64,000 bases of DNA from Oceanibacterium hippocampi (GTDB lineage: Bacteria > Pseudomonadota > Alphaproteobacteria > Sneathiellales > Sneathiellaceae): contig NZ_FWFR01000004.1 of the NCBI RefSeq assembly GCF_900172325.1, positions 186,001-250,000 on the forward strand. The letters are read 5' to 3'. How positions within the stretch are numbered: position 1 is the first letter of the stretch; each line of letters begins with the position of its first letter. This document shows positions 54,625 through 61,431 of this stretch, piece after piece. Made by a program: the position numbers and the translations under genes. The notes below the pieces were generated by a model. It saw only the letters and a list, made by a program, of their open reading frames with translations. It searched no databases and had not been told where the DNA came from.

Positions 54625-55542
54625 TCAGGCGGCGTATTTCGGCACGCCCCCATTGTGGAATTCATAGAAGATGCGACTCTGGCCGATGACCCGGACCGCC
54701 TCCTCCATGCGTTCCAGTTCGCCGCGCCCGCGCTGGGAGAAGGGGATGACCGTTTCCGAACGGTAGCGGGCCCCGGAATCGCTCTCCCCGGTCCAGTTGC
54801 CCTGCCACTGGATCTCGGCGATGCGGTTCACCCGCCGCCATTCCTCGACCCGTTCCGCGACCCAGCCATGGATGCACCAGAAGGTCGGGTTGACGTGACT
54901 GGAATAGGGATCGCCGAGATAGTCGTATTCTGGGTCGTCCCAGTAGGGATCGATCGATTGCGGATCGCTGGCGGACGGATGGGGGCGGATCCCCTCCGGC
55001 TCGTCCGCCCAGCGCAGGTGAAGGACGTTGTGGACGGTCGCCTCGATCAGCGCGCCATACTGGCCGAGGGTCAGCCGGCGAAGGGTCTCGGGCTCGCGAT
55101 AGAAGCCCTCCCAGCTCATCAGCGTGCCGCGATAGAAGGACGCGCTCTTGATGGTGATCAGGTAGAGATTGAAGTCGAAGGATCCGGTCTCCCAGGCGGC
55201 CGGCACCGGGAACTCGGGATCGTCCGGCCAGGGCAGCGAGCGCCAGCAGGGCAGCGCGGCCGGGTGTGGCGTGTTCAGGCCCCGCATCCAGCCGCCGACT
55301 TCCTCGAGCATCAGCCGGTGCATGAACAGGAAATCCTCGCCCGCGTTGTTGTCGAGCAGGAGTTCTCCGTTCGGGCCCTTGGCCGGCCGCGGCGGCTGCC
55401 AGCCCAGCTCGGCAAGCCGCTGTCGGGTGGTCGCCGGGTAGCGGTTCCAGTTGTTGCGGATCTGGTGCCACAGATAGTGGCGGAGGCGGCGGCGGCGTTC
55501 GGCGAGACGCACGGTAATCGCGTGGGGCAGTGAATCCGTCAT
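54625..55542 (-). CDS. Tyrosinase-like (type-3 copper, PvdP-like) protein
   Basis: 305 residues, no signal peptide. CuB-type ligands are clear: H171-x3-H175 (TVHNVLHLRW) and H225 in HVNPTFWCIHGWVAERVEEWR, which aligns with the tyrosinase pattern DPxFWxHHxxxDxxWxxW. The CuA end shows EDFLFMHRLML (H75), equivalent to FLPWHR. The histidine expected nine residues before it is N66, so the CuA site looks incomplete; H22 or H26 could be the first CuA ligand. It could hydroxylate/oxidise phenols, or be a copper protein with altered chemistry. Start at 55542 follows GGAG. It is divergent from a YcaO gene and convergent with allA, from which it is functionally distinct. Confidence 0.65.
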   Translation of the reverse strand: MTDSLPHAITVRLAERRRRLRHYLWHQIRNNWNRYPATTRQRLAELGWQPPRPAKGPNGELLLDNNAGEDFLFMHRLMLEEVGGWMRGLNTPHPAALPCWRSLPWPDDPEFPVPAAWETGSFDFNLYLITIKSASFYRGTLMSWEGFYREPETLRRLTLGQYGALIEATVHNVLHLRWADEPEGIRPHPSASDPQSIDPYWDDPEYDYLGDPYSSHVNPTFWCIHGWVAERVEEWRRVNRIAEIQWQGNWTGESDSGARYRSETVIPFSQRGRGELERMEEAVRVIGQSRIFYEFHNGGVPKYAA

Positions 55543-55666
55543 GTACATTCTCCGGCTCGGGCGGGCCGATACTGGTTGATGGACCCCGCGCGAGGCGGCA
55601 ACGACCGCCCGCGCGTCGCCTGCCGGGCATTGCCGGCTGAGGCTTCCGGGAGTGTTGCAACCGCAA

Positions 55667-55693
55667 CGTGAGCCGAGCGTGAATCGCGCTTGG
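55667..55693. repeat. 11-bp-spaced direct repeats in the tyrosinase-like/YcaO divergent promoter
   Basis: CGTGA occurs at 55667 and 55678, exactly 11 bp apart, with a degenerate third copy (CTTGG) at 55689. SARP regulators bind direct repeats with an 11-bp period, and a SARP-type gene lies at 57270. An adjacent GTTGC/GCAAC inverted repeat (55654-55667) overlaps the edge. Confidence 0.35.
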
Positions 55694-55725
55694 CGGGTTG
55701 CCGGCGCCGCCGCTATCGTCGGGGC

Positions 55726-57168
55726 ATGGAACGTGACGCCGTGCCGGTCTTGAATATCTTCCACATTGCCAGGCGCGTGCTGGCCTTGCTTCAGGGGCGT
55801 GACGGGACCGTCGGGACACTCGCCCGGGCGATCGGGATAGGCCCCGACCTCATCGCTCCGGCCTGCGAACTGCTGGCACTGTTCGGTTACGCCGAGGGTG
55901 ACGGGGCAGGTCGCTATCGCCGGTCATCGGCCCTGGCGCGTCCCGGTTCGCCGGAAACGCTGCTCGCGCTGGCGGCGCGAATGACGCGGCTGTTCCGCCT
56001 GCCGTCCGGCGATATGCCTGGCGGCTTCTTCTTCGGCGCCGAACTCGATCCGGCCGCCTTCAGGATCGGTGCGGCCGGGGACGCTGCCGCCGGGGTTGGC
56101 GGAAAGGGCGATAGTCTGCTCGCCGCCTTCGAGAGCTGTCTCGGGGAAGCGGCCGAACATGTCGCCCTTCACAGTCCTGCGCCGGCGGCAGCCTCGACCC
56201 GGCCGCAGCCGGAATCGGTACCGCCGGACGGCTGGACGGCGGCCAACTGGCGGGCGGCGTATCGCTGGATGCGGGACGGACTGGGGGCCGACCCCACGCG
56301 AATCGAGGCGATGCCCTGGCTCGCCGCCGAAGGCGACGACGGGCGCGCCCTTCCGATCCCGGCACCACTCATTCTCCGGCAATCGGCCGGGGATTGTCAG
56401 GAAGCCGACAGCAGCGGCCTCGCCGCCGGTCCCGATGTCGCCTCGGCGCGGTTGCAGGCGCTGCTTGAGGCGGTGGAACGGGATGCGGTCATGCTCTGGT
56501 GGCATGGCGGACGACCGGCGCCGGCGCTTGTCCTCGACCGCGACAACGCGGCCGCCCTCGACACCTTCGCGACCGAGGCGCGCGGCACCGCGATCCCGGC
56601 CCGGCGGCACTGGTTCCTCGATCTCACGAGCGATATCGCCGTGCCGGTGGTCGCGGCGCTCTCCGCGGGCGCGGACGGCGGGGCGGTTGCCTATGGGTTC
56701 GCCGCCGATCCGGATCCGGCGATCGCCGCGCGGCGGGCATTCATCGAAATGGGACAGTTCGAAATCGCCCGGACGCTGGCCATCATGAAGCGCGCGCAAT
56801 CGGGTGACGCGGCACTCGGCGCGACCGACCGGGCCCATATCGAGGGCGGCGAGCGGCTCAGCCTCGAGGCGTTTCCGAGGTTCGCCCCGAGCGCCCCTGC
56901 AAAGCCGGTCGCGGCGCGTCCGGATTTCGACGGCGACAGCGACGACGACGGGGCGGGACGCTTCGCCATGGTGCGCGATGCGCTTGCCGCCGCCGGATAC
57001 GCGGCATTCTTCGTCGATCTCACTCGACCCGACATCGCGGTCCCGGTGTTCCGTGCCATCGTTCCGGGGCTGCAGTCGGCCAGGGTCGCCTGGCGATCCC
57101 GTCGCCTTGCCCGGGTTCGGAGGGAAACGGGCCCGTCGACGGGCAATATGCCGGCCCTTTTCTACTGA
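55726..57168 (+). CDS. YcaO-domain protein (candidate peptide cyclodehydratase/thioamidation-type ATPase)
   Basis: 480 residues. Residues 1-70 look like a winged helix (IARRVLALLQGRDGTVGTLARAIGIG...GYAEGDGAGRYRR). The YcaO core follows: GGKGDSLLAAFESCLGEAAEH (126-145), SSGLAAG (229-235), ARLQALLEAVERDAVMLWW with metal-type E248 and E251, DLTSDIAVPVV, AARRAFIEMGQFE and PVFRAIVPGLQSAR near the end. YcaO enzymes use ATP to activate backbone amides in azoline/thioamide/amidine formation. No E1-like/ThiF partner or TfuA is nearby, and the C-terminal PxPxP of many azoline YcaOs is absent (it ends MPALFY). The winged helix might serve as a leader-binding element. It is divergent from the tyrosinase-like gene and 101 bp before the SARP gene. 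Confidence 0.72.
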   Translation: MERDAVPVLNIFHIARRVLALLQGRDGTVGTLARAIGIGPDLIAPACELLALFGYAEGDGAGRYRRSSALARPGSPETLLALAARMTRLFRLPSGDMPGGFFFGAELDPAAFRIGAAGDAAAGVGGKGDSLLAAFESCLGEAAEHVALHSPAPAAASTRPQPESVPPDGWTAANWRAAYRWMRDGLGADPTRIEAMPWLAAEGDDGRALPIPAPLILRQSAGDCQEADSSGLAAGPDVASARLQALLEAVERDAVMLWWHGGRPAPALVLDRDNAAALDTFATEARGTAIPARRHWFLDLTSDIAVPVVAALSAGADGGAVAYGFAADPDPAIAARRAFIEMGQFEIARTLAIMKRAQSGDAALGATDRAHIEGGERLSLEAFPRFAPSAPAKPVAARPDFDGDSDDDGAGRFAMVRDALAAAGYAAFFVDLTRPDIAVPVFRAIVPGLQSARVAWRSRRLARVRRETGPSTGNMPALFY

Positions 57169-57269
57169 TATGCAGACAATCGGTGAAATGCGCGGCGGAT
57201 CGCGATAGAGTTACCAAGTATTACAATTCGACGTTGTCAGTCGGTCGCGCCTGAAGGGGAGGTCGCGGT

Positions 57270-59300
57270 TTGGCCGCAGTAACACGTGTACGGGGGGCAC
57301 GGAACGGCATTCTGTTGCGTGTGTTCGACGGCTTTGCCCTCGAATCCACGATCAGCGGCCGTGCCGAAATCAAGAACCGGAAGGCGGCCGCGCTGCTTGC
57401 CTACCTGGCATTGCATCCCGAACGCGCCGAAACGCGCGAGCGGCTGGCCGGCCTGTTCTGGAGCGACAGCAGCGAGGACCAGGCGCGGGGCTCGCTCCGG
57501 CAATGCCTCCGGCAGCTTCGACGAACTTTCACGGAACTCGGTTTCGACGGGTTCGATCCGGCCCGGCAGCGCGTCGCGCTGGTCGCCGACGGCCTCGAGA
57601 CCGATCTGGTGCGGATCTCGACGCAGTTGCGCGACGGGATCATCGATCCCGGTTTGCTGACGGGCACGGTCTCGCCGGATCGCATCCTCTACGGCTACGA
57701 GGGTCTGGACCAGGCATTCGCCACCTGGCTGCAGGTCAACCGCCGGCAATGGCAGGATCAGTTCGTCGAGCAGTTGCAGGTGCTGTTGCGGGCGAGGGGT
57801 CGTGAGCCGGAGTTGCGCGTCCGCGCCGCGCAGGTCCTGACACGGATCGACCCCTCGCACGAGGAGGCGCAGCGCTTCCTGATCCGGACACTGGCGGAAG
57901 AGGGCAATGTCTCGGCGGCGCTCAGGCAGTACAACGAGCTCTACGATCTGCTCGATCGCGACTACGACATGGAGCCGGCGGACGAGACGCAGGCGCTGAT
58001 CGCCGAGATCAAGTCGGGCAGCTTCCGGCCCGAACCGGAAGTCGCCCTCTCGACGGTTCCCGATGGCGGCCTCCGCCCGGTATCCGGCAAGCCGGCGCAT
58101 CTGCCGCGTATCGAGGTCGACCGGTTCCGCCGCGGCGGCCCGGGCATTGACGGTGACTACCGCATCGAGGGGTTCCGTCGCGACATCATCTCGTCGCTGG
58201 TCCGTTTCCGCGAATGGGTGATCGTCGACGGCGAATATGCGGGCGACAACCAGGCGGCCGGCCGGGCCGGCGCCCCGGATTACGTCCTAGATGTCAATTA
58301 CGCCGATGCCGATGCTGCCTTCCGTCTCGTTGTCACGCTCAAGAACCTGCGGAACCAGGAATTCATCTGGAGCGATCGCTACACGCTCGATCTTGGCAAC
58401 TGGCTGGCGACGCAGCAGGAAATCGTCCAGAAGATCGCCGCGGCGCTCGACGTCTATCTGTCTGCCGATCGCATCGGCGGCGCCTGCGAGACGCCGGACG
58501 ACAAGCTCGACGCCTTCGACCTCTGGCTGCGCGGCCAGAGCCTGCTGAACGACTGGCGCCCGGAAACCGAGAAGCAGGCGGAGGAACTGTTCCGCCGCAC
58601 GATCGAGCGCATGCCCGGCTTCGCACCGGCCTACAGCAGCCTCGCGAACATCTACAACAGCCGCCATATCGCGCTGCCAGGCTACCGGCGTCAGAAGGCG
58701 CTCGAACAGGATGCGCTCAGCCTCGGCCGCAAGGCCGTTCAGCTCGACCCGCTCGACGCCCGCGGCCAGCTGACGCTCGGCTGGTCATCGATCCTCGCCG
58801 GCCAGTTCGACCGGGGCGAGTTCCATTTCGACCTCGCCAACCAGTTGAAGCCGGCCGATCCGGCGACGCTGATCTCGTCCGCGCACGGGCTCGCCTATTG
58901 CCATCGCTGGGATACGGCGAAGGAAGGCGCCGACCTGGCCATGCGGCTGACCCCGGCAGTGCCGCCGGTTTTCTGGGGCTATCTCGCCGGCATCCACTTC
59001 CTGTGCGGCGATTTCGAGGGCGCGGTCGCGGCGGCGGAGGAATCCGGCGACGCCCTTTCTATCATCTCCAACGGATGGATGACGGCGGCGCTCGCCCATC
59101 TCGGCCGCTTCGACGAGGCGCGGGCCGCCGGACGACACTTGCTGAAGCGGATCGGCGCGAACTGGCTCGCGCAAGACGAACGGGACGATGCCTCGATGAT
59201 CGCCTGGTTCGTCCATATCTTCCCGTTCCGCAGCGGCCGCGACCGGGAAAGATTGCAAGGCGGGCTCGAGATTGCCGGCCTGCCGGTCCGGCGCGACTGA
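57270..59300 (+). CDS. SARP-type transcriptional regulator (HTH-BTAD with C-terminal TPR region)
   Basis: 676 residues from a TTG start. Domain order: OmpR-like winged helix (about 12-100; LRVFDGFALESTISGRAEIKNRKAAALLAYLALHPE), bacterial transcriptional activation domain (about 105-250; RAAQVLTRIDPSHEEAQRFLIRTLAEEGNVSAALRQYNEL), a middle alpha/beta region (about 280-395; RRDIISSLVRFREWVIVDGEY...YVLDVNYADADAAFRLVVTL) and TPR-like helices to the end (FAPAYSSLANIYNSRH; AGQFDRGEFHFDLANQL). SARP proteins are often cluster-situated activators of natural-product genes. It is positioned between the YcaO gene and the convergent small-protein/peroxidase pair. Confidence 0.85.
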   Translation: MAAVTRVRGARNGILLRVFDGFALESTISGRAEIKNRKAAALLAYLALHPERAETRERLAGLFWSDSSEDQARGSLRQCLRQLRRTFTELGFDGFDPARQRVALVADGLETDLVRISTQLRDGIIDPGLLTGTVSPDRILYGYEGLDQAFATWLQVNRRQWQDQFVEQLQVLLRARGREPELRVRAAQVLTRIDPSHEEAQRFLIRTLAEEGNVSAALRQYNELYDLLDRDYDMEPADETQALIAEIKSGSFRPEPEVALSTVPDGGLRPVSGKPAHLPRIEVDRFRRGGPGIDGDYRIEGFRRDIISSLVRFREWVIVDGEYAGDNQAAGRAGAPDYVLDVNYADADAAFRLVVTLKNLRNQEFIWSDRYTLDLGNWLATQQEIVQKIAAALDVYLSADRIGGACETPDDKLDAFDLWLRGQSLLNDWRPETEKQAEELFRRTIERMPGFAPAYSSLANIYNSRHIALPGYRRQKALEQDALSLGRKAVQLDPLDARGQLTLGWSSILAGQFDRGEFHFDLANQLKPADPATLISSAHGLAYCHRWDTAKEGADLAMRLTPAVPPVFWGYLAGIHFLCGDFEGAVAAAEESGDALSIISNGWMTAALAHLGRFDEARAAGRHLLKRIGANWLAQDERDDASMIAWFVHIFPFRSGRDRERLQGGLEIAGLPVRRD

Positions 59301-59332
59301 GCGCGACGGCCGGCCGGTCCAGGCGGGATTCC

Positions 59333-59719
59333 TCAGCGGCAGAGATTGAGCGTGTATTCCCCGACCCGGAAATAGAAGACCTGTTCCGGCGTCAGCTTGG
59401 TCGAGCCGTTGGCAATCCGCTCATACTCGCCCGGCAGCGGATAGCTGCGCTGCGGGTCCTCCCGGACCGCGTCGAGCGAGGCCTGGACCAGTTCCTTAGG
59501 CGGAATCATGAAATGGACTTCCTCCAGCGTGCTCCGCCGGAAATGGATCTTCTTGAAGTTTTCCGGGACGATGCAATCGAGATGCTCGCGCAGGAAGTCC
59601 GGCCAGTCCTCTGGCCGCTTCGGCGGCGGCGGGCTGACGTTCTTCGGATCGATGGCCATCTTGACGAAATATTCGCCGACCTTCACCAAGTCCCGTGCAA
59701 CGATCTTGCCGTTCTTCAT
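59333..59719 (-). CDS. Small protein with a nitrile-hydratase-leader-like segment (candidate RiPP precursor or accessory)
   Basis: 128 residues, no signal peptide or known domain I can name. Residues 50-75 (IVPENFKKIHF...STLEEVHFMIPP) resemble the conserved leader core of nitrile-hydratase-related (NHLP) precursors, in which a P-x-n-V-x(E/D)-T-x-H-h-h-L/I-P pattern precedes the core peptide. A Pro-rich stretch (29-34) and the C-terminal EYTLNLCR with a single Cys near the end are notable. There is no double-Gly cleavage site. It starts 35 bp after the peroxidase stop with a good GGGGGAG site, so the two are cotranscribed. Alternatives are a peroxidase chaperone or an unrelated orphan. Confidence 0.5.
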   Translation of the reverse strand: MKNGKIVARDLVKVGEYFVKMAIDPKNVSPPPPKRPEDWPDFLREHLDCIVPENFKKIHFRRSTLEEVHFMIPPKELVQASLDAVREDPQRSYPLPGEYERIANGSTKLTPEQVFYFRVGEYTLNLCR

Positions 59720-59754
59720 GTCCAACTCCCCCGTTTGACGTGACGTGGTGCCGT

Positions 59755-61431
59755 TCAGGCGCCGACGAATTTCTTGATGGCGGTCATCGTGTCGGGAATG
59801 TCGCCGTCGAAGACCGCGCGCGCGATGGTCCCGGACACCTGACCAGCTTGTTTCTCGGTCGCAAGCAGGGCGCCGTAGAGGACCTCGGCCAGCAGTATCG
59901 AGCCGAGCGGGCCGAGACATTCGCCGTTGTGCAGATGCTCTGCCTCGAACAGCACGTAGAAAAGCAGCGGCGGATCCTTCGAAAGAGTCTCGACGTCCCT
60001 TGCCGGCAGGGTCGGCGCCTCGCCCACGGTCAGCCGCGCCCGGATCGCCTGGCGCCGGACCTTGCTGTCGGCCAGCGGGTAACCGGCGCAGACCTTATCG
60101 AGCTTGAAGCGGTCGATCAGCGAGGCGACGGTGCGCACCGGATGGATCAGGCTGCGCCGGAAATCCATCTCGAACAGACCGCCGGTGAAGGCGGTGTCGA
60201 CCTGGTGGCGCAGCGGGCCGGCCATGGTCGGCGAGAGCCGGCGGCTCGCATTCACATGCCGGCCGCTGCCGAAGAAACGGTCCCAGTCGATGATCCAGTC
60301 CCGGCGGAGCGGCGCCTGGTTCTCGCCCTCCGCGCCCGAGGCGGCGAGGATGTCGCTCAGCCGGCCGACCGGCTCGATCAGGTTCTCCGTGCCGTGAAAG
60401 CTGTTGAAGTCGTAACCGGCGCGGACCATCGCATGGCCGGCGCGGAGCGCGCCGAGGGTGAACTCGAAGGGGATCAGGAAGCCTTCCTTTCCAAACAGCT
60501 CCGGTCGGAACTCGTCGATCGGCCTGTGCGCGTAGGCCTTGCGAATGGTCTTGTCGAGCAGCCTCGGCAGATAGTCGTGCCGGATCGCGGCGCGGTAACA
60601 GGCAAGCGTGAGCGCCCGGGCGATCTCGAACTGTTCGGCATCGGCCTGCCAGTGGACCAGTCGCGGTGCACTGGCCGGGGCAGCGTAAAGGTCGTCCAGC
60701 CGGTCTATGATGCGATTGTGCAGGCGGTGAAACAGCACCACGAGCTGGCCGACGACCAGGTTGTCCTCGTTCCGTCCATCCGCGATGACCGGATCGTAGC
60801 GGCACTGCATCTGGTCGGATTCGGCCAGGCGTTCGGTCGTCGCGCGCGGCAGGTCGCGAAAATCGTCGGTCAGCGCCGGGCAATGTCCGGCAAGCTGCGC
60901 GCGGCCGATCCGCAGCTTCTTGCGCGGGCGGATCGAATCCCGGGGAATCTCGTAAAGCCAGGGGTTGAGCTCCGGCCCCTCTCCGTAAATGCACTGCAGC
61001 AGCAGCGGACGGGTCCGGATGTTTGTGACCTCATGATGCTCCGGCAGGGTGCGGGGCAGGACACCGCGGGTGAAGGCGATGTCGTGCGCGATCATCTGGC
61101 CGAGATAGGTGAAGCCGGACGGGATCTTCGGATTGTCGGCGCGCTTGCCGGCCGGGATCCGGTTCGTCCCGCCGCCTTTGAGCAGGACGGTGTCGCTGTA
61201 CATGCGGAGCGTCAGGCGTTCCAGCATCCCCGCCAAGGTCGCGCCGTCTGCGAGCGCGCCGAAACGGTCCTTGCCCGAAGGTTCGCCGAAGAAATTGATA
61301 TAGGGCAGTCCCGGCCCGACCCGGGCCGAAGCGACCTCGGCCGTCGCCAGCCCGGCCGCCTGCGCTGCAGTCTCGGATGTCCCTTCGCCGGTCGATCCGA
61401 CGTCGAGCGGAGCCCCCCCACCGTGTCGCAT
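59755..61431 (-). CDS. Animal-type haem peroxidase
   Basis: 558 residues, no signal peptide. The distal-histidine motif is TYLGQMIAHDIAF (H116), and the catalytic-arginine/proximal-histidine region is ADGRNEDN...LVVLFHRLHNRII with the His of HNR (H238) as probable proximal ligand. The body matches the prokaryotic branch of the peroxidase-cyclooxygenase superfamily. It oxidises substrates or halides with H2O2; the haem-linking Asp/Glu cannot be judged here. Start at 61431 follows AGGGGGACGAC; further upstream ATG would begin in the intergenic hairpin side. First gene of a two-gene unit with the NHLP-like protein. Confidence 0.85.
   Translation of the reverse strand: MRHGGGAPLDVGSTGEGTSETAAQAAGLATAEVASARVGPGLPYINFFGEPSGKDRFGALADGATLAGMLERLTLRMYSDTVLLKGGGTNRIPAGKRADNPKIPSGFTYLGQMIAHDIAFTRGVLPRTLPEHHEVTNIRTRPLLLQCIYGEGPELNPWLYEIPRDSIRPRKKLRIGRAQLAGHCPALTDDFRDLPRATTERLAESDQMQCRYDPVIADGRNEDNLVVGQLVVLFHRLHNRIIDRLDDLYAAPASAPRLVHWQADAEQFEIARALTLACYRAAIRHDYLPRLLDKTIRKAYAHRPIDEFRPELFGKEGFLIPFEFTLGALRAGHAMVRAGYDFNSFHGTENLIEPVGRLSDILAASGAEGENQAPLRRDWIIDWDRFFGSGRHVNASRRLSPTMAGPLRHQVDTAFTGGLFEMDFRRSLIHPVRTVASLIDRFKLDKVCAGYPLADSKVRRQAIRARLTVGEAPTLPARDVETLSKDPPLLFYVLFEAEHLHNGECLGPLGSILLAEVLYGALLATEKQAGQVSGTIARAVFDGDIPDTMTAIKKFVGA

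Follow-up and report, generated by a model that had tools for sequence, protein, structure and literature searches.

A recurrent alphaproteobacterial locus of YcaO, haem peroxidase and a SARP-like regulator that may modify the tail of a small protein

A persistent gap in RiPP genome mining concerns the YcaO enzymes for which neither partner nor substrate is recognised. The described systems closest to the one considered here are the LynD-type YcaO systems and the LAP/TOMM class of azol(in)e antibiotic clusters, in which the leader is removed to leave a short azole peptide for export. A further point of comparison is offered by the NHLP precursors MprE7 and MprC, which have a structured leader, a long folded N-terminal part that precedes the modified C-terminal tail (PMC12455567). 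The open-access papers searched contain no account of a locus that pairs YcaO with a haem peroxidase, nor do they tie animal-type haem peroxidases to YcaO or RiPP biosynthesis. The surveys PMC4603692, PMC2887384, PMC8120280 and PMC7136475 make no mention of a peroxidase, and PMC8776678 mentions one in other contexts only.

The locus lies in the window, a stretch of 64,000 nucleotides of Oceanibacterium hippocampi DNA in which a first-pass annotation had picked out five genes, as follows.

54625..55542, minus strand: PvdP-type (type-3 copper) tyrosinase, 305 residues, divergent from YcaO (NF051454, E 3e-45)
55726..57168, plus strand: YcaO ATP-dependent amide-activating enzyme, 480 residues (PF02624, E 2.8e-44)
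57270..59300, plus strand: SARP-like regulator (BTAD, middle domain and TPR), 676 residues (PF03704, E 5e-11, plus TPR)
59333..59719, minus strand: small protein, 128 residues, the proposed substrate, convergent with the regulator gene
59755..61431, minus strand: animal-type haem peroxidase, 558 residues, co-oriented with the small-protein gene and immediately upstream of it (PF03098, E 1e-9)

Open reading frames were confirmed at all five positions, and the labels of SARP/BTAD activator and animal-type haem peroxidase are borne out by the profile matches given above. The flanks are as unrelated as had been described, with a purine operon, whose last gene encodes ureidoglycolate lyase, on the left and phnN, a phosphonate gene, on the right. 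The allantoicase and phnN flanks were never found adjacent in relatives, and no clean empty site marks the boundary of an insertion.

YcaO, the regulator, the small protein and the peroxidase form a conserved alphaproteobacterial locus. The first-pass annotation had treated all five genes as a unit, a proposal that scattered homologues would have contradicted; when co-occurrence was checked, these four were found linked in many alphaproteobacterial genomes, and the tyrosinase fell outside the set. A search of 385 alphaproteobacterial genomes returned three relatives of the YcaO protein at 38-40% identity (G119, G253 and G116). By tblastn, the same regulator and peroxidase lie near the YcaO relative in each, and the gap between these two genes holds, in the same slot, a small protein of approximately 130-155 residues that can be aligned with the 128-residue protein of the window. 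In three distant genomes the regulator shows 38-43% identity over its full length.

A scan of 84,980 species genomes, seeded with the C-terminal half of the regulator only (a seed that is uninformative on the other three genes), gave 80 loci, three of them on the same contigs as L028-L030. As judged with HMMs, the four-gene set is complete in 65 of the 80 and three of the four genes are present in 13 more. Among the 15 incomplete loci, three lie at a contig edge (L099, L107 and L113), two carry a divergent small protein (L043 and L044) and the remainder are missing YcaO or the peroxidase nearby. There is no YcaO gene near the small protein and peroxidase in L052, L059, L066 and L067, and the HMM scan found no peroxidase in L051, L063, L069 and L120; neither enzyme is therefore strictly obligatory locally. 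In the usual layout, which is kept across families, YcaO and the regulator occupy one strand and are convergent with the small protein and peroxidase. Plasmid versions with all four genes, sometimes in a different order, occur in Paroceanicella profunda, Phaeobacter inhibens, Paracoccus denitrificans and P. aminovorans, and the Paroceanicella plasmid keeps the convergent arrangement. Across 66 loci the four proteins diverge in parallel (pairwise distances correlate, r 0.90-0.96), which in part reflects shared species history.

The small protein was also used as a starting point, with a profile built from 55 sequences and run on two partly overlapping samples, one of 385 genomes at class level and one of 398 at phylum level. 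Nine genomes were positive, all from one class: the window's own, G116, G119, G253 and five more. All nine carry the small protein inside the locus, one of the five additional genomes having YcaO fragments only. A contig scan seeded with a single YcaO sequence gave no loci, the same-gene-order search matched the small protein in the window's own genome alone, and plasmid searches using the 128-residue protein and two homologues as queries returned no match.

A domain match, the acidic residues of the ATP/Mg site and a fold likeness to LynD and to the archaeal M. jannaschii YcaO place the enzyme within the YcaO superfamily. The ExxER motif at 248-252, E341 and Q344 (ExxQ), E141 and E144 are invariant or at least 90% conserved in 42 homologues, and the AF2 model (pLDDT 89) has LynD as its best PDB match (4v1v, E 6e-19) and matches M. 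jannaschii YcaO at Z 34. A winged-helix domain is predicted at the N-terminus (approximately residues 9-68) in a poorly conserved segment; it matches many wHTH folds (Z 9-10) and could be a candidate recognition domain.

The resemblance to LynD-type systems covers the YcaO fold, the ATP-site residues and a gene for a candidate substrate whose C-terminal part contains Cys and Thr/Ser. Unlike those systems, the locus has no E1/ocin-ThiF partner, usually has no FMN dehydrogenase and carries a haem peroxidase instead, and the small-protein tail is invariant and mostly contains one Cys. It differs from the LAP/TOMM class in having no E1-like/ocin-ThiF partner with an RRE beside YcaO, no SagB-type azoline dehydrogenase in the window's genome (an optional feature of the class) and no hypervariable Cys/Ser/Thr-rich core. 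The earlier description of the YcaO as partnerless agrees with the rest of the genome. SagB dehydrogenase (TIGR03605) is absent from it; TfuA (PF07812) is likewise absent, which sets the enzyme apart from YcaO-TfuA thioamidation; and nothing over the cut-off for the TOMM cyclodehydratase partner (TIGR03882) was found genome-wide, the one weak match lying on a different contig and none among the locus neighbours.

As the genome has no SagB oxidase, the peroxidase is left as the candidate oxidant. It shares with the animal-type haem peroxidases of the myeloperoxidase/cyclooxygenase superfamily a distal Q-x3-H-D motif, a catalytic Arg and a proximal His, and Q112, H116, D117, R220 and H333 are invariant in 30 homologues. 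We take the distal motif, Arg220 and His333 to have the same roles as in myeloperoxidase. There was no match to PDB sequences at E 0.1.

The small protein is, by sequence, a new family. It has no credible match among NCBIfam, Pfam or PDB sequences, and where annotated it is called 'hypothetical protein'. The AF2 model (pLDDT 90) is mainly helical, and Foldseek gave nothing convincing for it (best E 4.9, with no PDB fold among the matches listed), although a missing match to a solved fold is no proof of a new one. The NHLP-like segment reported in the first-pass annotation did not survive comparison with profiles: TIGR03793 does not match the window's protein and is touched by one of 55 homologues, at E 0.14. 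NHLP membership was rejected on these profiles, the AF2 model giving no decisive sign for or against the nitrile-hydratase-alpha-like fold of that family. MprE7 and MprC may still serve by analogy as a working model, with a folded N-terminal part followed by a C-terminal tail.

In the window the protein ends in RVGEYTLNLCR, with Cys127 as the penultimate residue. The motif R-x-[GA]-[DE]-Y-x4-C-x(1-2) stands at the C-terminus of all 80 main-group small proteins, and in 61 of them the tail Cys is the sole Cys. The residue after the tail Tyr is Thr in 57 sequences, Ser in 18, Cys in two, Val in two and Ala in one. P36, R118, Y122 and C127 are invariant among 55 homologues, in which a Y-x2-P-x2-Y block and P73 of a [RKM][LI]PP stretch, both upstream of the tail, are at least 90% conserved. 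Small proteins of the Rhodobacterales end in GDYVLQHCD, GIYATNMCR or GIYITNMCD and keep Y-x4-C-x, and those of more distant clades (LIRSCASC, LIRCCAAC, LLRRCR) keep a terminal or penultimate Cys. Because three of the 80 tails have no Thr, Ser or Cys after the Tyr, and Rhodobacterales have Val, Ala or Ile, the firm sites are the Cys and the Tyr, not the Thr.

Taken together, this looks like an apparently undescribed system, a new variant of the YcaO-dependent (RiPP-like) type that would chemically alter a single small protein at its tail. On balance we favour a YcaO-dependent protein maturation, in which YcaO would activate the tail and the peroxidase would then oxidise the product or the Tyr. 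The regulator presumably turns the locus on. The small protein would be the substrate, as the first-pass annotation had proposed; this fits the universal C-terminal Tyr/Thr/Cys motif, and gene linkage and that motif make the protein a candidate. Its folded N-terminal part would act as a built-in recognition domain, like a structured leader, and the modified part would be the C-terminal tail RxGDYTxxxCx. With ATP, YcaO would activate a backbone amide in this tail, most likely leading to cyclodehydration, to azolines, of the penultimate Cys and of the Thr/Ser that follows the Tyr. The haem peroxidase, with H2O2, would convert azoline to azole, or else oxidise or cross-link the invariant Tyr, and the PvdP-type tyrosinase is possibly an optional extra oxidase here. 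A thiazole/oxazole product is plausible; we infer the reaction order and the biological use of the locus, and draw the chemistry from the enzyme families. It counts against this reading that no leader, RRE or E1/ThiF partner is recognised.

The tail is invariant, not hypervariable, and the loci share no recurring transporter or protease; the product is therefore probably a single conserved protein carrying the modification, or a cofactor-like group, rather than a secreted, diversifying antibiotic. More tentatively, YcaO and the peroxidase might build a protein-bound redox or metal-binding group (an azole- or Tyr-derived cofactor) in the tail, for which there is no described counterpart. The locus supplies a likely YcaO substrate, and its universal tail motif predicts the modified residues. 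It occurs in culturable hosts (Bradyrhizobium, Belnapia and Paracoccus denitrificans), so that the chemistry is directly testable, and if confirmed a haem peroxidase would join YcaO-linked maturation. The tail motif and four profiles permit annotation of the system.

The small protein might alternatively be a fixed partner of the peroxidase (an adaptor, chaperone or redox subunit) whose tail docks into YcaO or the peroxidase, with YcaO acting on the peroxidase or on a small molecule. The small protein is confidently predicted to be a folded domain, its gene almost always adjoins the peroxidase gene on the same strand, and an invariant motif is expected of an interaction tail. Some loci hold it with no YcaO nearby, and the loci that have no YcaO or no peroxidase close by leave room for such a role. 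However, the near-terminal Cys in 80 of 80 sequences and the cyclisable residue after the Tyr in 77 are how a YcaO substrate would be expected to look, and the small protein is retained at the four loci in which no peroxidase was detected. We consider a partner role rather unlikely.

An ordinary LAP/TOMM cluster would account for a YcaO that is nearest to the SagD/LynD-type cyclodehydratases and for the SARP-type activator. It would also suit the Paracoccus denitrificans plasmid, which has two YcaO genes: a SagD-type YcaO ending in PCPHPLA and a SagB dehydrogenase lie directly beside the locus (L168:3743-5837), a pairing that hints at azole chemistry but may be a separate cluster. Such a cluster is nonetheless improbable, given a tail that is neither hypervariable nor rich in Cys, Ser and Thr, the want of a recurring transporter or protease, and a genome in which neither SagB nor TfuA, nor a TOMM E1-type partner above the cut-off, is found. 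That the five genes are unrelated chance neighbours deserves almost no credence, for while the tyrosinase is found in a YcaO-locus setting only here, the other four genes stay together in dozens of genomes belonging to different families, and in nine of nine profile-seeded genomes, which contradicts chance for those four.

The protein first described as type-3-copper-like is, by its match to NF051454 and to the PvdP crystal structures 6rrp and 6eys (E 4e-40, residues 15-239), a PvdP-type tyrosinase. It aligns to the catalytic domain of PvdP, the pyoverdine maturation tyrosinase, and shares its His residues; unlike PvdP, it covers only positions 202-444 of 536 in the profile and sits in a YcaO locus. 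The gene is single-copy in the genome. Its inclusion in the conserved set was rejected, as it was not seen in the other loci scanned and the neighbours of PvdP-like genes on plasmids are unrelated. On a plasmid of Mesorhizobium onobrychidis (L027:9518-13079), a PvdP-like protein adjoins a LodA/GoxA-type CTQ oxidase.

In Bradyrhizobium the tyrosinase slot, divergent from YcaO, is filled by a protein of approximately 180 residues. This family is present in 47 regulator-seeded loci (including L068:7071-7625) at two positions, lying beyond the peroxidase in Belnapia and its relatives, and two members have no Pfam or NCBIfam match. In G664 (L154:10707-11133), YcaO fragments only lie between the regulator and the 180-residue gene, and the genes for the small protein and the peroxidase appear complete. 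Elsewhere the slot holds a second peroxidase copy of the same broad family (L156:12011-13858), or a peroxidase of that family at a locus whose usual peroxidase slot is beyond the contig end (L054:5243-7021). A reasonable reading is that the slot divergent from YcaO may be a place for an optional second oxidase, here the tyrosinase.

The locus showed other variations too. Two Bradyrhizobium genomes have a tandem pair of small-protein genes (L060:11226-12127 and L064:11219-12118). In L051:11689-13458 and L120:11798-13330 the small protein is kept and the peroxidase slot holds an apparently exported protein of 510-589 residues with no Pfam match. A divergent version (L032:2722-6281 and L033:8575-12078) has YcaO and the peroxidase in tandem and a small protein ending in LIRCCAAC or LIRSCASC, and in L033 an adenylate-cyclase/TPR protein replaces the SARP.
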